Below the pieces are notes generated by a model. That model did no database searches. It saw only the letters and a program-made list of their open reading frames with translations, and had not been told where the DNA came from. The position numbers and the translations under genes were made by a program. Shown one piece after another: positions 13,962-35,748 of a stretch of 64,000 bases of DNA (within the stretch, counting starts at the first letter, position 1; each line of letters opens with the position of its first letter). Source of the DNA: Metabacillus sediminilitoris. GTDB taxonomy: Bacteria > Bacillota > Bacilli > Bacillales > Bacillaceae. Where the stretch lies: positions 1,187,501 through 1,251,500 of the forward strand of contig NZ_CP046266.1 of the NCBI RefSeq assembly GCF_009720625.1, in the 5' to 3' direction.

Positions 13962-15185
13962 TCAGGATGCTTCTGTTTCTGTCAGCGAAACGGTGTAGCC
14001 TAAGCTTTCAAGTCGTCGAAGCGAATGACGTACAATTGATTGTGCTCTTTGTTTATCAAAGTAGTCTTCACCTAAGTCTACATACATTTCTTTTCGTGTT
14101 AAAAGATAGTAACATATTCGCAATATGGCATGAGAGACAACAATAGCAGCGCGTTTTGTACCCTTGCGGGCAGCTGTACGTCGATACAATGCCCCAAGGT
14201 AGTTTTTAGATCCTCTTACTGAGTGAGCTGCTTCTTGTAAGGCTGATTTTAAATATTTATTCCCTTTCTTAGTTTTGGAAGATTTTCTTTTACCAGCACT
14301 TTCGTTTTGTCCTGGAACTAACCCTGCCCAAGAACACATATGAGCAGCGCTTGGAAATTGATTTTTAACATCAGTTCCAATCTCAGCTAGAATCTGTTCT
14401 GCCATACGGGTAGCGACACCTGGAATTGAATCTAAACGTTCAACGTCATCTTGATAAGAACTCATTCTTTCTGCAATTTCATTATCAAGCTTCTCGATTT
14501 GATCTGTAAGAAAATCAATGTGAGTGATAATTGTTTTAAGCATCATTCGCTGATGAGGGCTAATGTAGCCTCGTAATGCTAACTCTAGTTCCTCTTTTTT
14601 CTTTTTCAATGTTCTGCGAGCGAAGCTTGCGAGCTTTACGGGATCATCTTCTCCATCAGCAATCGCACGAAGCATCTCCATAGCGGAAACACCCTTAATT
14701 TGTGACACAACTGAACCCAGTTTAATGTTAGCACCTTCTAACACTTTTTGGATTCGATTTTGTTGTCTCGCCCGTTCTTGAATGATACTTCTACGGTATC
14801 GAACTAATTCTCGTAATTCTCTTTGATCTCGATTGGGAATATAGCTAGCTTTTATTAATCCATGACGAAGAAGCTTCGCAATCCACTCAGCATCATTTAC
14901 ATCAGTTTTCCGTCCAGGAACAGCTTTAATGTGTTGTGCATTGACTACTAAAAATTCAATTCCCTCACTTTCTAGTAAATTCACAATTGGCTTCCAGTAT
15001 ACGCTGGTGCTTTCCATGGCAACATGAGAACAATTGTGTTCCTTAATCCAGTCTAATAGTTTTAACAAAAACACGGTTTTCGTTGAAAAAGTTTGAATCT
15101 CCTTTCCTTCTGGTGTAAGAATACATGCGGTGATAGAGTCTTTATGAACGTCCATCCCACATGCTCGTTCAATGATTACATCCAT
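13962..15185 (-). CDS. IS110-family transposase, copy A
   Basis: A 407-residue transposase of the DEDD type. The RuvC-like N-terminal domain has Asp12 (CGMDVHKDS), Glu58 ([10 protein letters not shown]), Asp95 and Asp98 (GRKTDVNDAEW). A helical linker follows, and the C-terminal Tnp20 domain has [30 protein letters not shown] and the serine of QNESAGKRK that supplies the second catalytic residue in this family. It is full length and intact, with an AGAGAGG ribosome site before the ATG. The protein is identical to that of copy B. IS110 recombinases act together with a structured RNA encoded by the element. Confidence 0.95.
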   Translation of the reverse strand: MDVIIERACGMDVHKDSITACILTPEGKEIQTFSTKTVFLLKLLDWIKEHNCSHVAMESTSVYWKPIVNLLESEGIEFLVVNAQHIKAVPGRKTDVNDAEWIAKLLRHGLIKASYIPNRDQRELRELVRYRRSIIQERARQQNRIQKVLEGANIKLGSVVSQIKGVSAMEMLRAIADGEDDPVKLASFARRTLKKKKEELELALRGYISPHQRMMLKTIITHIDFLTDQIEKLDNEIAERMSSYQDDVERLDSIPGVATRMAEQILAEIGTDVKNQFPSAAHMCSWAGLVPGQNESAGKRKSSKTKKGNKYLKSALQEAAHSVRGSKNYLGALYRRTAARKGTKRAAIVVSHAILRICYYLLTRKEMYVDLGEDYFDKQRAQSIVRHSLRRLESLGYTVSLTETEAS

Positions 15186-15442
15186 TTTAATTTTCCTCTC
15201 TACGACATATTAGTGGAGGCTGGTGCAACAACCAGAACAGGGATTAATCTACTATGAGTGCTTCCGCAAGGGAGCAACAGTCAGTGGTGCACCGTGGTCG
15301 AAGGAGTCAGACTAAAGGGTGGGCTCTAACGCACCATAGTTTATCGACCTTCCTCTCCCAGCCGTAGAATCAGTATTGACGGTTCTAGACCATTTTCATT
15401 CTCTGTGGTGCAGCGCTGATTTTTGCGCTGCATGGGCGGCTA
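15186..15442 (-). ncRNA. Putative bridge (seeker) RNA region of IS110 copy A
   Basis: The non-coding leader is highly structured. A terminal hairpin (TGCAGCGC/GCGCTGCA, 15410-15432) is followed by a GGTGC/GCACC stem enclosing a loop with CTAAAGGG (15312-15319). Next come a GCTTCC/GGGAGC hairpin and a segment with CTACTATGA (15249-15257) beside a CTGGT/ACCAG hairpin. CTACTATGA is identical to the element's own end (CTACTATGA at 13834 and 15440), as expected of a donor guide. CTAAAGGG equals the right-flank target at 17046. RNA existence is inferred from IS110 biology and from covariation with element C. Confidence 0.75.
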
Positions 15443-15567
15443 CTATGAAAATTAAATTATGTAAGGAAGAAAAGAAGGCAATACTAAAGAAGACGCAGCT
15501 CATTCATTTTTAAAAAAAGGAGAGCGCCTGATTCATAGGCAATTAAAAAGCTAATCTTTAGACTGGA

Positions 15568-16791
15568 TCAGGATGCTTCTGTTTCTGTCAGCGAAACGGT
15601 GTAGCCTAAGCTTTCAAGTCGTCGAAGCGAATGACGTACAATTGATTGTGCTCTTTGTTTATCAAAGTAGTCTTCACCTAAGTCTACATACATTTCTTTT
15701 CGTGTTAAAAGATAGTAACATATTCGCAATATGGCATGAGAGACAACAATAGCAGCGCGTTTTGTACCCTTGCGGGCAGCTGTACGTCGATACAATGCCC
15801 CAAGGTAGTTTTTAGATCCTCTTACTGAGTGAGCTGCTTCTTGTAAGGCTGATTTTAAATATTTATTCCCTTTCTTAGTTTTGGAAGATTTTCTTTTACC
15901 AGCACTTTCGTTTTGTCCTGGAACTAACCCTGCCCAAGAACACATATGAGCAGCGCTTGGAAATTGATTTTTAACATCAGTTCCAATCTCAGCTAGAATC
16001 TGTTCTGCCATACGGGTAGCGACACCTGGAATTGAATCTAAACGTTCAACGTCATCTTGATAAGAACTCATTCTTTCTGCAATTTCATTATCAAGCTTCT
16101 CGATTTGATCTGTAAGAAAATCAATGTGAGTGATAATTGTTTTAAGCATCATTCGCTGATGAGGGCTAATGTAGCCTCGTAATGCTAACTCTAGTTCCTC
16201 TTTTTTCTTTTTCAATGTTCTGCGAGCGAAGCTTGCGAGCTTTACGGGATCATCTTCTCCATCAGCAATCGCACGAAGCATCTCCATAGCGGAAACACCC
16301 TTAATTTGTGACACAACTGAACCCAGTTTAATGTTAGCACCTTCTAACACTTTTTGGATTCGATTTTGTTGTCTCGCCCGTTCTTGAATGATACTTCTAC
16401 GGTATCGAACTAATTCTCGTAATTCTCTTTGATCTCGATTGGGAATATAGCTAGCTTTTATTAATCCATGACGAAGAAGCTTCGCAATCCACTCAGCATC
16501 ATTTACATCAGTTTTCCGTCCAGGAACAGCTTTAATGTGTTGTGCATTGACTACTAAAAATTCAATTCCCTCACTTTCTAGTAAATTCACAATTGGCTTC
16601 CAGTATACGCTGGTGCTTTCCATGGCAACATGAGAACAATTGTGTTCCTTAATCCAGTCTAATAGTTTTAACAAAAACACGGTTTTCGTTGAAAAAGTTT
16701 GAATCTCCTTTCCTTCTGGTGTAAGAATACATGCGGTGATAGAGTCTTTATGAACGTCCATCCCACATGCTCGTTCAATGATTACATCCAT
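15568..16791 (-). CDS. IS110-family transposase, copy B
   Basis: The 407-residue product is residue-for-residue identical to copy A, including the DEDD residues Asp12, Glu58, Asp95 and Asp98 and the C-terminal QNESAGKRK serine motif. Unlike A, whose leader abuts B, this copy has a leader that abuts native DNA. Transcription entering A from B's end could make A more active than a single copy, since upstream of A's leader lies the end of B rather than random DNA. That expression effect is inference. Confidence 0.95.
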   Translation of the reverse strand: MDVIIERACGMDVHKDSITACILTPEGKEIQTFSTKTVFLLKLLDWIKEHNCSHVAMESTSVYWKPIVNLLESEGIEFLVVNAQHIKAVPGRKTDVNDAEWIAKLLRHGLIKASYIPNRDQRELRELVRYRRSIIQERARQQNRIQKVLEGANIKLGSVVSQIKGVSAMEMLRAIADGEDDPVKLASFARRTLKKKKEELELALRGYISPHQRMMLKTIITHIDFLTDQIEKLDNEIAERMSSYQDDVERLDSIPGVATRMAEQILAEIGTDVKNQFPSAAHMCSWAGLVPGQNESAGKRKSSKTKKGNKYLKSALQEAAHSVRGSKNYLGALYRRTAARKGTKRAAIVVSHAILRICYYLLTRKEMYVDLGEDYFDKQRAQSIVRHSLRRLESLGYTVSLTETEAS

Positions 16792-18483: not shown

Positions 18484-18862
18484 AATGTCCTCCTCTTTCG
18501 AATAACTCATATTTTTTGTTCATAGCGTTTTAACGCTATTTTAAAATAACATTACTTTGTTAAGCTAATGTGAATAAACTGTATTAGTTCTGTAAATAAG
18601 CACTAATAAAACTGGATTTAACATTACTAACCAACTTTTTACCATATAAATTTAGGTAAGGGAAAAATAGTATAAGAAGTAAAGGTAAAATGTTATCTTA
18701 GCTGCCGTTGGGTGGCAATTTTAACTAAACCAGCTAATAGTATGTCAATATTTTTCAATAAAAATATAAAAAATCACATGCTATACTAAAAATAAGCATG
18801 TCAAATAACCTTCCGTTAGTCTAATTTTGGAAGGTTTTGTGTTATTTAGTTAGATTTAGGTT

Positions 18863-20098
18863 CTAAGCTATATCTTGGAAAGTAGTTCTATTCTTTAAAA
18901 GGGCAAATATCCAATGTAATAGCTTATTTACACAAGCTATTACAGCTACTTTGAAGGGCTTTCCTTCTTCACGTTTCTTGTCGTAAAACTCTCTCATTTT
19001 TTTGTTTCGAGGGATGATTTCATCCGTCGTTTTCTTCTTACGACAATCACGAATGGCACAACGAACGACCATATATAAGGCATGACGAAGCCTACTAGAT
19101 CCTCGTTTTGTTATCCGATTCTTTGTGGCTGTAAACTTACCAGATTCAAATACACTAGGATCGATCCCAGCGAAAGCTACAAGTTTCTTAGGATTATTAA
19201 ATCGATCTATCTCACCAATTTCAGAAATAATCGTTGCCGCGATTTTTTCACCGATACCAGGGATAGATTTGATGATATTATATTCTTCAATTTCTTTTGC
19301 GAGGGCATCTATCTCTGACTCTAACTTTGATAGATGCTCTTTGTATTGAAGAAGAATATTTATATACATACCCAGACTTAAAATATGACTCTGATAAACT
19401 GTCTTTTCAAAAGGGTTACGAGCCGCCGCAGCTTTTAGTTGAATCGCTTTTTCATTAGCCCATTTGATTGATCTACTATTACATAATTCAAATATCTTGT
19501 CTCTAATTGTTTCTTCACTAGCTCTCAAAATATCTTCAGAAGAGGGAAACTCTGAAAGAGTTAAGAGTGACACCACAGAATATAAATCTCCAAATACCCC
19601 TTTATATTCAGGATATACTTGTTCAAGCACAGCCTGAAATTGAAGTTTTGTTTGAATCATGACTCCAGTTATATTTTCATGTTGCCTTGTAAGATTACGA
19701 AGGTTTAGTAACTGGACTCCACGCTTTTTATATGGCTCTAACTCTTCTTTATAGAACAACTCACAAAGTAAATAAGCATCAACTGCGTCTGTTTTAACTT
19801 TCCTTAAACTAGAACTTCTTGCCTTATATGAAATCAATGGATTAAGGATAATCAATAAATATCCTCGTTCTTCTAAATAATGAACGAGAGGAGTTTGGTA
19901 ATGCCCAGTAGCTTCTAAAATGACTGAAGGCTTCTTTCCAGACTCTCTTTTCACATCCTCAAGAAACACTACAAGTGAATTAAGACCCTCAACAGTATGA
20001 GAAACTTTAAAGCTCTTACGATATGGATTGCCTTTATCTAAAAATGCTTGAACTTGACTCTCACCTTTTGAAACATCCAGACCCACGACTGGATTCAT
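18863..20098 (-). CDS. IS110-family transposase, element D
   Basis: A 411-residue DEDD transposase. Asp8 (GLDVSKGESQ), Glu62 (VILEATGHY), Asp104 and Asp107 (VKTDAVDAY) form the RuvC-like site. The C-terminal Tnp20 domain has SIPGIGEKIAATIISEIG, KLVAFAGIDPSVFESGKF (with the catalytic-type serine before GK) and KRGSSRLRHALY. It is intact, with a GGAGGAG ribosome site. It belongs to a different branch of the family from elements A-C and is closely related to element E, from which it differs throughout and by a short insertion near the C-terminus. Confidence 0.95.
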   Translation of the reverse strand: MNPVVGLDVSKGESQVQAFLDKGNPYRKSFKVSHTVEGLNSLVVFLEDVKRESGKKPSVILEATGHYQTPLVHYLEERGYLLIILNPLISYKARSSSLRKVKTDAVDAYLLCELFYKEELEPYKKRGVQLLNLRNLTRQHENITGVMIQTKLQFQAVLEQVYPEYKGVFGDLYSVVSLLTLSEFPSSEDILRASEETIRDKIFELCNSRSIKWANEKAIQLKAAAARNPFEKTVYQSHILSLGMYINILLQYKEHLSKLESEIDALAKEIEEYNIIKSIPGIGEKIAATIISEIGEIDRFNNPKKLVAFAGIDPSVFESGKFTATKNRITKRGSSRLRHALYMVVRCAIRDCRKKKTTDEIIPRNKKMREFYDKKREEGKPFKVAVIACVNKLLHWIFALLKNRTTFQDIA

Positions 20099-20349
20099 TC
20101 TAAATCTCCTCCTAAACTAGTAAATTTGCCAGTAACCCCTAATTCCTCCATGCAGTATCACAGCTTCGCTTGTTATACGAGATTTAAGTCCCAACCAGCC
20201 TCAATCATGTTTCTACAAGTAGGGGGCGAACGGTTTACTTGACGGGGTCAAGCCCCACGGGCAGTTACGTTCTACCCTGGCTACTGTAATAATAAAATCA
20301 TATAAAAAATGATCAACCAGAAATATCTGGCTGACCTTATAATACGAAC
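20099..20349 (-). ncRNA. Putative bridge RNA region of IS110 element D
   Basis: In transposase sense the leader starts at the GTT core and contains CGTATTAT, then a terminator-like hairpin (GGTCAGCCAG/CTGGTTGATC, followed by TTTTTT). A loop follows containing CTGCCCGT (plus-strand ACGGGCAG, 20257-20264). The native flank next to the element is the same eight-mer ending in the core (ACGGGCAG, 20348-20355). Further on, GGCTGGTTGGGAC resembles the element's own 3' end AGCTGGTTTAGTT over seven bases. This is consistent with target- and donor-guide loops. Confidence 0.75.
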
Positions 20350-20385
20350 GGGCAGGTTAGCAAAAGAAGGTATATTATAAGGATA

Positions 20386-21388: not shown

Positions 21389-21758
21389 TCTATCAACTCC
21401 CACTTTTTTACACTATTCCAAAGGAATGCGGATAAGGAGAAAACCTTCCTTTCCCAACAAACCTTAACGATAGCAAGGTTTCATTAAAAAAGAAGCCCTC
21501 TCCGTGCTTTTTGAGGAACGATTATATTGCCAATAATTTGTTTTCAACTGCTGAATGAATTTTAAAAGATATAGAGATAAAGGTCAATGAAAGAGAATTG
21601 AACCTGGGCAAAAAGTGTGAAAGATTGTACTTAAACTACCATGAAAATTAACTTCTGTTAGATCCGAAAAATGGCAATACTTAAATAGACGCAGCTCATT
21701 CATCTTTTTAAAAGGGGAGAGCGTCTGATCATTGGTGTTTATTTACTTGTTTAATGGA

Positions 21759-22976
21759 TTAGGAAGCTTCTGTTATTGTAACCGTATAGCCTAAGTTTTC
21801 TAGTCTTCGAACCGAATGGCGTACAATTGATACCTGTCTTTGTTTATCAAAGTAGTCTTCGCCTAAGTCTACATACATTTCTTTTCTAGTTAACAGGTAA
21901 TATGCGATCCGTAATATCGCATGGGCAACTACTATAGCTGCTCTTTTGTTGCCTTTTCGTCCTGCTGTTCGTCGATACAATGCACCAAGATAGTTTTTTG
22001 ACCCTCTGACTGATTGAGCTGCTTCAGTTAATGCTGATCTTAAATACTTATTTCCTTTTTTAGATTTAGTTGATTTTCTTTTCCCAGCACTTTCATTATG
22101 TCCAGGTACGAGAGCTGCCCATGAACAAAGATGTGCCGCAGTTGGAAATTGATTTTGAACATCAGTACCGATTTCAGCTAGGATTTGTTCAGCCATTCTT
22201 CTGGCGATTCCAGGAATCGAATCTAGTCTTTCAATATCTTCTTCATACGAGTTTACTCGTTGGGCTATCTCTTGATCTAACATTTCAATTTGCTCAGTTA
22301 GAAAATCAATGTGAGTTAAAATCGTTTTAAGCATTAAGCGTTGATGTGGGTTAACATAGCCCTGAAGTGCTAATTCAAGTTCTGCTTTTTTCTTTTTCAT
22401 TGTACGACGAGCGAAGTTTGCTAGTTTCTCAGGATCATCCTCGCCGTCAGCGATAGCTCGAAGCATATCCTTCGAGGAAACCCCCATAATATCTGAAACG
22501 ACAGAGCCTAGTTTGATATTGGCTCCTTCTAAAACTTTTTGAATTCGATTATGTTGTCTTGCACGTTCTTCGATAATACTGCGGCGATAACGGACAAGTT
22601 CCCTCAGCTCTCTTTGAATACGGTTTGGAATGAAACTCGCTTTGAGTAAACCATGGCGAAGAAGTTGGGCAATCCATTCGGCATCTTTAACGTCGGTCTT
22701 ACGACCGGGGAGTGCCTTCATGTGTTGGGCGTTTACTACTAGAAACTCAATCCCTTCAGATTCTAGTAGGTTAACGATAGGTTTCCAATAAACACTCGTG
22801 CTTTCCATTGCGACATGAGTACAGTCATGTTCCTTAATCCAGTCGATTAACTTAAGCAGAAAAACTGTTTTGGTAGGAAACGTTTGAATCTCCTTTCCAT
22901 CAGGTGTCATAATACATGCAGTGATATTGTCCTTATGAACATCCATACCACATGCTCTTTCAATGATTACATCCAT
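21759..22976 (-). CDS. IS110-family transposase, element C
   Basis: A 405-residue DEDD transposase closely related to copies A and B but with many substitutions. Asp12 (CGMDVHKDN), Glu58 ([10 protein letters not shown]), Asp95 and Asp98 ([11 protein letters not shown]) are kept, as are [37 protein letters not shown] in the C-terminal domain and the ending [13 protein letters not shown]. It is intact. Divergence from A and B shows that it arrived separately rather than by local copying. Confidence 0.95.
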
Positions 22977-23224
22977 TGAAATTCTTCCTTTCTAGGCTTG
23001 TAAATTGGAGGCTGGTGCAACAATCAGAATAAGGATTAATCTACCATGAGTGCTTCCCGTAAGGGAGCGACAGTTTGTGGTGCACCGTGGTCGTTGGAGT
23101 CAGACTAACGGATGGGCTCTAAGGCACCATAGTTTATCGACCTTCCTCTCCCAGCCTTAGAAGCAGTATGGACGATTTTCATTCTTTGTGGTGAAGCGCC
23201 GATTTTGCGCTTCATGGATGGCTA
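22977..23224 (-). ncRNA. Putative bridge RNA region of IS110 element C
   Basis: It aligns with the A/B leader along its whole length, with compensatory changes. The terminal hairpin is TGAAGCGC/GCGCTTCA (23192-23214) where A has TGCAGCGC/GCGCTGCA. The CTGGT stem pairs with ATCAG instead of ACCAG. The donor-like segment is CTACCATGA (23041-23049), matching this element's own end CTACCATGA (21636-21644), whereas A/B have CTACTATGA in both places. The target-like loop reads CTAACGGATGGG (23105-23116) against the flank CTAAAGGGTGCG, nine of twelve identical. Confidence 0.78.
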
Positions 23225-23232
23225 AAGGGTGC

Positions 23233-23481
23233 GTTCGTATTATGAGGTTAACCAGTTTTTACTGGTTGACCTTTTTTATATAGGACCTATTATATCGGTA
23301 GCCAGGGTAGGACGTACGGGTGCGTGGGACCATGATCTCGTCAACTAAACTGTCCGCCCCCTACTTGAAGAAACATGTTTGAGGCTGGTTGGGACAACGA
23401 TCTCGTATAACAAGCGAAGCTATGATACTGCAAGAGGAATAGGGGCTACTGGCAAAACAAATGGAGAGGAAGAGATAAAGA
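23233..23481 (+). ncRNA. Putative bridge RNA region of IS110 element E
   Basis: The layout matches D. GTT-CGTATTAT is followed by a terminator-like hairpin (GGTTAACCAG/CTGGTTGACC then TTTTTT, 23246-23277), compensatory to that of D. The loop then contains GGGTGCGT (23318-23325), identical to the left target plus core GGGTGCGT (23227-23234). About 20 bases on, CGTCAAC can pair with the right target GTTGATG at all seven positions, one of them a G-T wobble. D has CTGCCCGT at the same loop position, matching its own target. Confidence 0.78.
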
Positions 23482-24684
23482 ATGAATCCAGTAATCGGTC
23501 TGGATGTTTCAAAAGGGGAAAGCCAGGTTCAAGCATTTTTAGATAAAGGAAAGCCGTTTGGAAAAAGTTTTAGTGTATCACACACGACTGAGGGACTAGA
23601 TGCCTTACTTCATTATTTGAAAGTGGTAGAAAATGAGACTGGTATAAAACCAAGTGTAATATTAGAATCGACGGGACATTATCACACTCCTGTCATTCAG
23701 TTTTTAGAGGAACAGAATTATTTATACATTATGATCAATCCTTTACTGTCTTATCAGGCAAAAAAATCGAGTTTGCGAAATGTGAAAACAGATGAAATAG
23801 ATGCTTTTCGCTTGTGTGAACTGTATTACAAAGAAGAGCTTGAACCCTATAAAAAAAGGGGTATCCAACGTTTAAACCTTCGTCATCTTACTAGACAACA
23901 TGAAACCCTTACGGGTTTGTATGTTCAAGCTAAGTTACAGTTTCATGCGATTTTAGATCAAGTGTTTCCTGAATATAAAGGGGTATTTGGAGATTTGTAT
24001 TCAAAAGTTTCTCTAAACATACTCCTGGAATTTAGTACGTCAGAATCTGTGGTACAGGCTGGAGAAAACAAGGTAACCGATAAAATAGCGAGTTTATGTA
24101 TGAGTCGTTCGGAACGTTGGGCACAAGAAAGGGCAAAGAAGCTTTATGAAGCAGCTCAGCGTAACCCATTTAAGAGCATAGTCTATCAAAGTCATTTGAT
24201 AAGCCTTGAAATGTATATTCAACTGCTTCTCCAATACCAAGAGCATCTAGCAAAGTTAGATGATCAAATAGATGCCCTGGCAGGAGAAATAGAAGAATAT
24301 AAGATTATCCAGTCGATTCCCGGTATCGGAGAAAAAATCGCGGCAACGATTATTTCTGAAATTGGAGAAATCGAACGGTTTAATCACCCTAAAAAATTGG
24401 TTGCCTTCTCTGGAATCGATCCAAGTGTACATTCATCGGGGAAATTTACAGCGACGATTAATCGAATCACCAAGAGAGGCTCAAGCAGACTGCGACATGC
24501 CTTATATATGGCTGTTCTCTGTGGGATCAGATCCTCTCGTAATAAGAAGCTAAAAGAGTTCTATGATCGAAAGCGAGAAGAAGGAAAACCTTTTAAAGTC
24601 GCAATGATTGCATGTGTAAATAAGCTTATTCATTGGATTTATGCCTTACTAAAACGTAAAGAAGCTTTCCTGGATTTAGCTTAA
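23482..24684 (+). CDS. IS110-family transposase, element E
   Basis: A 400-residue DEDD transposase of the same branch as element D. Asp8 (GLDVSKGESQ), Glu62 (VILESTGHY), Asp104 and Asp107 (VKTDEIDAF) are present, together with SIPGIGEKIAATIISEIGEI, VAFSGIDPSVHSSGKF and KRGSSRLRHALY in the C-terminal domain. It is shorter than D because a segment of about a dozen residues between ALYMAVLCGIRSSRNKK and KEFYDRKREEGK is absent. It is intact, with a GGAGAGGAAGAG ribosome site. Confidence 0.95.
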   Translation: MNPVIGLDVSKGESQVQAFLDKGKPFGKSFSVSHTTEGLDALLHYLKVVENETGIKPSVILESTGHYHTPVIQFLEEQNYLYIMINPLLSYQAKKSSLRNVKTDEIDAFRLCELYYKEELEPYKKRGIQRLNLRHLTRQHETLTGLYVQAKLQFHAILDQVFPEYKGVFGDLYSKVSLNILLEFSTSESVVQAGENKVTDKIASLCMSRSERWAQERAKKLYEAAQRNPFKSIVYQSHLISLEMYIQLLLQYQEHLAKLDDQIDALAGEIEEYKIIQSIPGIGEKIAATIISEIGEIERFNHPKKLVAFSGIDPSVHSSGKFTATINRITKRGSSRLRHALYMAVLCGIRSSRNKKLKEFYDRKREEGKPFKVAMIACVNKLIHWIYALLKRKEAFLDLA

Positions 24685-24821
24685 CAAAAACAATTAGGCA
24701 AAACATGAAAAACCTTCCAATATAAATGAGGAAGGTTATTTGGCATGAATATTTTTAGTATATCATTTTGTTTATAGGATTTTTATTGAAAAATGTTGAC
24801 ATCCTATTAGCTGGTTTAGTT

Positions 24822-25055
24822 GATGAAGGATTAAGTGATTTTATGAATGAGGCTATATAACAGTTATTCCATTAAAGGGCGCGATCCTGGAACATGGATA
24901 AGCGTTCGTTTTTCATTTTTAGGGCCAGTTGAAAAGCAGAGAAGAAACAATACAAATATAGGTATTATAGAAAATAAAATGACAAATGATTATAAAGAGA
25001 TGTATTAAATGTGAATGCGATATACCGTTTCAATATTTTGTTTAAAAACCTTTAT
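24822..25055. other. Repeat-like debris right of element E
   Basis: It contains TTAAAGGGCGCGATCCTGGA (from about 24883), another Bacillus-style intergenic motif. No gene is supported. Confidence 0.3.
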
Positions 25056-33219: not shown

Positions 33220-33426
33220 GCGGATGAATATTGTGGGAGAGACTAAACGCATTGTTTAGCACCGAAGGAGCAAGTTCTAATAAATTTGGAATCAAACTCT
33301 CAGGTAAAAAGGACTACAATAGGACGCATCTCTGGAGAGAGCCATGTGCCACCAAAGGAGTTAAACTCTCAGGTAAAAGGACAGAGAAAAATAGGAAAAT
33401 GCCTATTTTTCTCTGTCCTTTTTTTG
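33220..33426 (+). promoter_or_regulatory. Tandem glycine riboswitch with terminator (1)
   Basis: There are two glycine aptamers in a row. The first (33220-33310) has TTGTGGGAGAGA, CACCGAAGGAGCAAG and CTCTCAGGTAAAA. The second (33311-33385) has CTCTGGAGAGAG, CACCAAAGGAG and CTCTCAGGTAAAAGGACAG. The expression platform is a long terminator (AGGACAGAGAAAAATAGG/CCTATTTTTCTCTGTCCT then TTTTTT, 33378-33426) that overlaps the second aptamer's P1, as in known ON switches. The first complete gene after it is the CycA-like permease, 400 bases away. Confidence 0.93.
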
Positions 33427-35510: not shown

Positions 35511-35748
35511 GAGCGGATGACGGTTGTGGGAGAGAGCAAGAAACAAGCCACCGAAGGAGCAAGTTCCAAAAAGACCCTTGGAACAAATCTCTCAGGTAGA
35601 TGGAACCACAACGGGACGCACCTCTGGAGAGCGCGTATATAGAGTACGCCACCAAAGGGGAAGACTCTATGAATAATGGAGTTAAACTCTCAGGTAAAAG
35701 GACAGAGAAGGGTAGAGAACGCTATGCTACCCTTTTCTGTCCTTTTTT
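35511..35748 (+). promoter_or_regulatory. Tandem glycine riboswitch with terminator (2)
   Basis: Aptamer 1 (35511-35602) has GGTTGTGGGAGAGAG, CACCGAAGGAGCAAG and CTCTCAGGTAGA. Aptamer 2 (35603-35705) has CCTCTGGAGAG, CGCCACCAAAGGGG and CTCTCAGGTAAAAGGACAG. The terminator AGGACAGAGAAGGGTAG/CTACCCTTTTCTGTCCT with TTTTTT (35699-35748) competes with the second aptamer. It sits 165 bases before glyA and should turn the whole catabolic operon on when glycine is abundant. Confidence 0.95.

Follow-up and report, generated by a model that had tools for sequence, protein, structure and literature searches.

The closest described relatives of the elements reported here are insertion sequences of the IS110 group. 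Bridge RNAs, the covariation of guides with targets (5,511 pairs) and tolerance at the core were published in 2024 (PMC11208160, PMC11208158), and REP targeting by IS110 elements is on record in PMC1525189. IS621 combines a DEDD plus Ser recombinase with a non-coding RNA in its left end (PMC11208160, PMC11208158). A target loop is followed by a donor loop, which together carry the left and right target guides (LTG, RTG) and the left and right donor guides (LDG, RDG), with a G.T pair in the RDG and with handshake positions (PMC11208158). IS621 also inserts into REP elements (PMC1525189). Two elements of a Bacillales genome, called E and D here, are alike in each of these respects, their RNA being a predicted one. 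A sequence-only reading of the locus had taken the two to be apparently undescribed, and among the PMC papers listed none was on them by title or start of the abstract; an ISfinder entry may exist.

The window, meaning the whole stretch of DNA that was analysed, comprises 64,000 nt (positions 1,187,501-1,251,500) inside a genome of 5.6 Mb. Five IS110-type open reading frames (A, B, C, D and E) lie between 13.9 and 24.7 kb of the window. E and D form one clade, with transposases 71% identical, which agrees with the earlier view that they are the same IS110 type inserted in different sequences; A, B and C belong to another IS110 type. Element E spans 23236-24817 on the plus strand, its ends set by comparison of copies and by uninterrupted repeats, and encodes a transposase of 400 aa at 23482-24684 (plus). 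Its left end is CGTATTATGAGG and its right end is GCTGGT plus the donor core TT, read on the plus strand. The left end is the longer, with 246 bases before the ATG and 133 after the stop. D spans 18727-20346 on the minus strand, with a transposase of 411 aa at 18863-20098 (minus), and C, also on the minus strand, spans 21636-23224, with its transposase at 21759-22976. The genome holds four copies of E at 100% (rounded) protein identity, in addition to D, its sister L006, and the relatives L007 and L008.

Two further arrangements were seen in the window. A and B, which are alike in translation, stand in tandem at 13962-16791. Near 15442 the right end of B directly meets the left end of A (flank CATAG, then TAGCC), as if a circle junction had become part of the chromosome. 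Two glycine riboswitches lie at 33220-33388 and 35614-35715. They precede what we take to be an amino-acid permease-like ORF and a glyA-like ORF, respectively, and the latter presumably heads a glycine-cleavage-like gene cluster.

Membership in the IS110 group is seen in the proteins. Those of A, C, D and E, the four tested, match the IS110 models NF033542, PF01548 and PF02371, with an NF033542 score of 254 bits against a cut-off of 140, which corresponds to a DEDD RuvC domain and a Transposase_20 domain with the catalytic Ser. The residues D, E, D, D and Ser of E align with those of IS621, the numbering offset being taken from the alignment. The guide-bearing predicted RNA sits in the left end, unlike the non-coding RNA in the right end that marks the IS1111 group. 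Against the Tas nuclease model NF052498, E scored 41.5 bits and D 41, both below the cut-off of 100. TIGR-Tas systems carry a tandem interspaced guide RNA array; the predicted leader fold shows one two-loop RNA.

The sequence-only reading started from an octamer shared by leader and flank. In E, GGGTGCGT stands both in the flank (23227-23234) and in the leader (23318-23325); in D, CTGCCCGT is the complement of the flank at 20348-20355 and of the leader at 20257-20264, at the same loop position. Both matches were recovered. The core GT assumed there was not, as the two bases at that place are GT, AA, GT and TT in the four copies of E. Because uninterrupted repeat copies in the fetched loci (GGGTGCG-TT-AGTTG, GCGCCCG-AT-TGTTG, CTGCCCCG-TT-AGTTT and similar) place the core one base further right, it is defined here as WT (TT or AT). 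The left target of E is then GGGTGCG (23227-23233, plus), followed by the core TT of the left junction (23234-23235, plus). Its left target guide, GGGTGCG (23318-23324, plus), is identical to the flank and would pair with the bottom strand, and the base T at 23325 (plus) lies opposite the core. In D, on the minus strand, the left target CTGCCCG is at 20349-20355, the core TT at 20347-20348, and the left target guide CTGCCCG at 20258-20264, at the same loop position as in E.

The four copies of E all adjoin GGGTGC and keep the leader guide GGGTGCG, and their sites fit GGGTGC-N-WT-WGTT. Right junctions are mostly GCTGGT-TT, with GT-AT in one subclade; from their sequences, both are read as the donor's form. 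The origin of the left core, from target or donor strand, overlaps with the natural variation of empty sites. A single-base core T was considered and rejected, since it fails to explain three Ts at the right junction. At core position 8, 136 of 156 loci have T and 18 have A. The T expected of IS110 follows at position 9, but its constancy is partly by construction, because that T belongs to the anchor used for finding ends.

The comparison rests on loci of the same clade. Eighty were the best 80 of 115 from one scan of genome contigs; 60 near relatives gave 27 places and 19 new loci; and a search of 397 genomes of the order, which matched in 49, gave at least 29 loci with the best four or fewer candidates per genome scored, with 57 further places from it extracted as stretches. 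A search of 21 genomes of the genus returned no new loci, and the clade set is without matches in 27 plasmid records. L011-L029 were excluded from it as other IS110 types, together with the fragments L015 and L027 among them. Set A, of 110 loci, served to define the registers, and set B, of 86 loci, was extracted with rules fixed on A. From these 196 loci, 20 without leader anchors, 6 without a usable left end and 7 duplicates were removed to leave 163 (92 in set A, 71 in set B), with the right flank usable in 156. A FastTree transposase tree was built from 136 rows, omitting the 27 of 163 loci with an ORF shorter than 330 aa.

The agreement between guide and flank is real and exceeds chance. 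Across the 163 loci, which carry 33 distinct left guides, the identity of the own guide to the left flank averages 5.53 of 7. Permuted pairs average 3.54 with an sd of 0.10, and none of 20,000 permutations exceeded 3.95; the resulting z of 20.5 overstates the independence of the loci, since they share kinship. Set A gives 5.58 against 3.63 permuted, and the 71 loci of the held-out set B give 5.47 against 3.44. In strict register the match is 7/7 in 71 and at least 6/7 in 106 of the 163 loci. The sequence-only reading had proposed aligning the loops of all copies with their flanks, and would have been refuted by loops unrelated to their own flanks; with one base of register slack the match is found in most copies, 134 of 163 reaching at least 6/7. 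This level is attained by 114 of the 136 tree rows, whereas permutations given equal slack average 23.4 and never exceed 39. In strict register, just 97 of 163 flanks find no better guide than their own among the 33 distinct ones. Twenty-nine loci stay below 6/7 even with slack, including L008, L103, L145, L051, L039 and L058; of these, L008, in the same genome as E, carries the guide TGGCCC at a GGGTGC site, and L058 adjoins the right end of another copy.

The register itself shows some play. L116, L123 and L129, with guide GCGCTTG, stand at GCGCTTTG, which exceeds the guide by one T, and several CTGCCC guides are found at CTGCCCC sites. From these sequences, one extra target base beside the core seems to be tolerated. 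Such slack has precedent, because off-target sites of IS621 seemingly tolerate insertions in the target (PMC11208160).

The match could in principle be a by-product of all elements using few kinds of one repeat, with no guide RNA involved. The targets are indeed classes of one palindromic repeat, and even permuted pairs reach 3.54 of 7. Given that the loci are related, relatives with different guides were paired, starting with the nearest, along branch-disjoint paths. The own guide then fits the left flank better than the swapped guide in 27 of 30 pairs, with 3 ties and none reversed (sign p 1.5e-8); these pairs depend on a single FastTree tree, where support is poor for 35 of the 111 inner branches. 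With slack, 28 pairs favour the own guide and 2 are tied, again with none reversed. Differing guides are found at correspondingly differing sites, which contradicts a by-product of the repeat. The same is seen at the level of single bases: L191 and L190 (GCATCAG/GCATTAG) differ by one base in guide and flank alike, as do L146 and L172 (CTGCCCG/CTGCACG), the latter pair scoring only with one-base slack. We regard the by-product explanation as extremely improbable.

The right-hand side provides weaker evidence of the same kind. The right target of E is AGTTGAT (24818-24824, plus). Its right target guide is GTCAACT (23340-23346, plus), followed by the core-pairing AA (23347-23348, plus). The pairing described earlier between CGTCAAC (23339-23345) and GTTGATG (24819-24825) is reproduced at 7/7 positions, one of them a wobble. 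The right guide of D, GTCAAGT (20237-20243, minus), predicts ACTTGAC, where the actual flank is AGTTAAA (18720-18726, minus; 4/7); its sister L006 has the same right guide and the flank ACTTTAA (5/7). Over the first six bases, wobble included, own right guides score 4.55 against 3.93 permuted (n=156). Over the first five bases, the own guide exceeds the swapped one in 28 of 38 path-disjoint pairs, with 5 ties and 5 reversed (p 6.6e-5). These right-side counts retain four probable miscalled right ends (L046, L078, L209, L213) and four right guides one base out of register (L104, L200, L203, L207).

When the leader columns of the 156 loci were scanned without guidance against 26 flank positions, the 12 top cells all fell in guide segments. 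Six lie on the LTG diagonal (84-89 by -8 to -3, same base), four are one base off it, and two, 112 by +1 and 111 by +2, belong to the right guide and are complementary. The third right-guide position, 110 by +3, ranks 30th, below unrelated cells. The target loop is thus found to match the left target on the bottom strand and the right target on the top strand, with covariation, as in IS110 elements, the right side being the weaker.

The leader has a predicted fold in keeping with these assignments. RNAalifold on 31 leaders, picked as diverse from 44, gives a 5' hairpin and then two stem-loops of the same plan, an arrangement resembling that of bridge RNAs. In E these would correspond to a 5' hairpin at 23246-23271, a target-binding stem-loop at 23305-23359 and a donor-binding stem-loop at 23364-23434, all on the plus strand. 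In the first predicted stem, the LTG and RTG sit in an internal loop below an apical GGGA/TCCC stem; the second carries GGCTGGTT and CAAGCGAA. The fold has 49 pairs, 19 of them with at least one double change, and a covariation term of -2.99 of -49.2 kcal/mol, computed without a shuffled control. A leader with no conserved structure would have spoken against the sequence-only reading; what these 31 leaders give is a predicted fold that is conserved and in places shows compensatory changes.

The position of both guides within this fold bears on another explanation, in which the leader acts as DNA and its homology to the target drives insertion without RNA. In its favour, the left guide has the same sequence as the left flank, but the right guide, a few bases away on the same strand, is complementary instead. 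Both lie inside a conserved, RNA-like predicted fold with some compensatory changes, and the homologous IS621 recombinase requires the RNA in vitro (PMC11208160). A purely DNA-based role is accordingly given almost no weight against a bridge RNA.

In the donor loop of that bridge RNA, the left donor guide GGCTGGTT (23383-23390, plus) is nearly invariant and matches the right end AGCTGGT-T. The right donor guide CAAGCG-AA, together with the donor-loop handshake position GC, occupies 23411-23420 (plus), and its GCGAA pairs with TT-CGT of the left end with one wobble. The donor loop is thereby complementary to the element's own ends, as in IS110 elements. Covariation of donor guides with the ends could not show, because the donor-guide columns are nearly invariant. 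Within the fold, GCT from the left donor guide is also paired with AGC from its right counterpart. Conservation of these columns is relevant to whether the active form is instead a short processed seekRNA with the target loop alone. ISEc21, itself an IS110 member, uses a seekRNA of 58-74 nt (PMC11187229). Conservation is much stronger in the donor-guide columns here than in the target guides, which speaks for use of the donor guides, although it may have other causes. A short form is considered unlikely, with a modest share of probability left to it, and the full two-loop bridge RNA is preferred.

Handshake positions, a concept described in PMC11208158, have candidates in both loops. The AC of E at 23349-23350 (plus), which follows the core-pairing AA, is complementary to the donor GT and, by analogy with the handshake guides of IS621 (PMC11208158), would fit it at positions 6-7. 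In the donor loop, leader position 185 (23419 in E) carries C in 33 loci, each of which has G at flank -2 (target position 7); in the 123 loci where position 185 is G, flank -2 is G in 64, T in 26, C in 21 and A in 12. The association has a Fisher p of 2.8e-7 over 133 rows, with just 3 changes on the tree and a scan rank of 29. Judging from these alignments, changes at target position 7 may be accompanied by a switch of the donor-loop handshake base.

The joined ends of E (24796-24817 to 23236) would form a -35/-10-like pair, TTGACA-18-TATTAT, whose TTGACA is at 24796-24801 (plus). TTGACA with TATTAT or TAATAT, 17-18 bases apart across the joined ends, occurs in 150 of 157 loci and in 0.4% of 20,000 random 64-mers; the -10 part sits in the anchor used for the left end, which leaves the -35 part and the spacing as the independent features.

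How guides and sites come to agree can be judged from identical copies. The sequence-only reading had suggested target-guide exchange by a bridge RNA: the guide function is supported, and the exchange is not. Were the guide segment copied from the insertion site each time, guide and flank would likewise be the same, and some near relatives do differ at 3-4 of 7 guide bases. However, among 15 groups of identical transposases (37 members), none has more than one LTG or RTG, and yet 10 of the groups are mixed in their left flanks and 14 in their right flanks (one of the 14 includes a missing right flank). Moreover, 21 of the 37 members fit their own guide at less than 7/7. Guides fixed in identical copies with differing flanks mean that the guide is not rewritten at insertion. 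Templated capture is rejected as the rule and retains only a very slight probability.

The guides are better described as inherited and differing between lineages. On the tree of 136 rows, the left guide shows 45 parsimony changes. Changes per column are 11.7 for the LTG and 13.9 for the RTG, against 0.6 for the LDG and 1.8 for the RDG, so that the rate in target-guide columns is some 6 to 23 times that in donor-guide columns. Compared with donor guides and stems, the target guides are fast, but not uniquely so: high values are also reached by the apical loop (15.7) and by the 5' hairpin with the linker (7.5).

The flanks resemble halves of a REP-like palindrome of the TTGAACTAA ... TTAGTTCAA type, in which GGGTGC and GCACCC are one motif in opposite reading directions. 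Uninterrupted GGGTGCNWTWGTT has 4 matches in the 5.6 Mb genome and 0 in the reversed control, and four more sites are taken by E. A longer, over-specified GGGTGC pattern had 0 matches in this genome. The pattern CAACTAAN{6,10}TTAGTT gave 8 matches (4 + 4, two palindromic places being counted on both strands) against 11 (7 + 4) in the reversed control, and is thus uninformative. All 7 matches of SYRCCCNWTWGTTNAANNA in this genome, 5 of them GCACCC, fall between 1.12 and 2.56 Mb and read on the reverse strand; on so few copies, a strand bias of the repeat is possible.

The other IS110 type of the window uses the same repeat, with two subtypes whose guides end in CCGTTAG and CCTTTAG. Among the 12 copies of this second type seen, one being half of the tandem, CCGT flanks accompany 4 of 5 CCGTTAG guides and CCTT flanks 6 of 6 CCTTTAG guides. 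In this genome (L017-L029), guide and flank agree in 10 of 11 copies outside the tandem, and the exception is element C. C and E (together 21636-24817) lie in one repeat copy, and the bases between them hold the left target of E. By pattern, two IS110 types about ten bases apart in one palindromic repeat copy occur in 4 of 163 loci (the E/C locus, L033, L076 and L108). L073 probably has the same arrangement: the pattern missed it, but a type-1 end can be seen by eye in the right flank.

Taken together, E and D are almost certainly IS110-group elements guided by a bridge RNA encoded in the leader. The left non-coding end probably encodes and would be transcribed into this RNA, with its 5' hairpin, target-binding loop and donor-binding loop. 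In the donor loop, GGCTGGTT and CAAGCGAA would recognize the element's own right and left ends, which they match. In complex with the RNA, the DEDD/Ser recombinase would then exchange strands, joining circle and target at the core; the targets are copies of the REP-like palindromic repeat. Guides pass on with the element and vary among lineages, presumably by mutation, and where the guide has changed the element is found at a correspondingly changed site. A more tentative proposal, which we hold to be rather unlikely, is that the clade is a natural experiment in bridge-RNA retargeting, in which sites change with guides, an extra or missing base on the core side seems to be accepted, the handshake base may switch, and some guide changes are perhaps replacements of a block of the loop.

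The mechanism of E and D is ordinary for IS110, and their value is a dense natural series of guide changes. With sister-pair controls and purely from sequence, the series supports natural Bacillales IS110 elements following RNA guides, and it makes testable how a guide moves between targets without stranding the element. It also contains dozens of natural guide/target matches with a WT core, which could widen the toolbox of bridge recombinases.

Several features set the clade apart from IS621. The core is TT or AT in the clade and CT in IS621, which tolerates GT, AT and TT; the right guide can reach 7 bases, compared with 4 in the structure of IS621; and the target is a Bacillales repeat rather than the E. 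coli REP. The transposase has 400-411 aa, against 326 in IS621, with similarity (E-value 1.4e-29) in two separate stretches. ISEc21 (PMC11187229) shares with E and D an upstream non-coding region in which the bottom-strand match lies 5' of the top-strand match, and a promoter formed at the circle junction, but differs from them in target and host. Natural redirection was described there in one relative, ISMch6, whereas the E/D clade offers many guide changes. ISPpu9, ISPpu10 and ISPa11, like E and D, insert in palindromic extragenic repeats, but these are repeats of Pseudomonas, and the main text of PMC1525189 is without the words Bacillus or Firmicutes.
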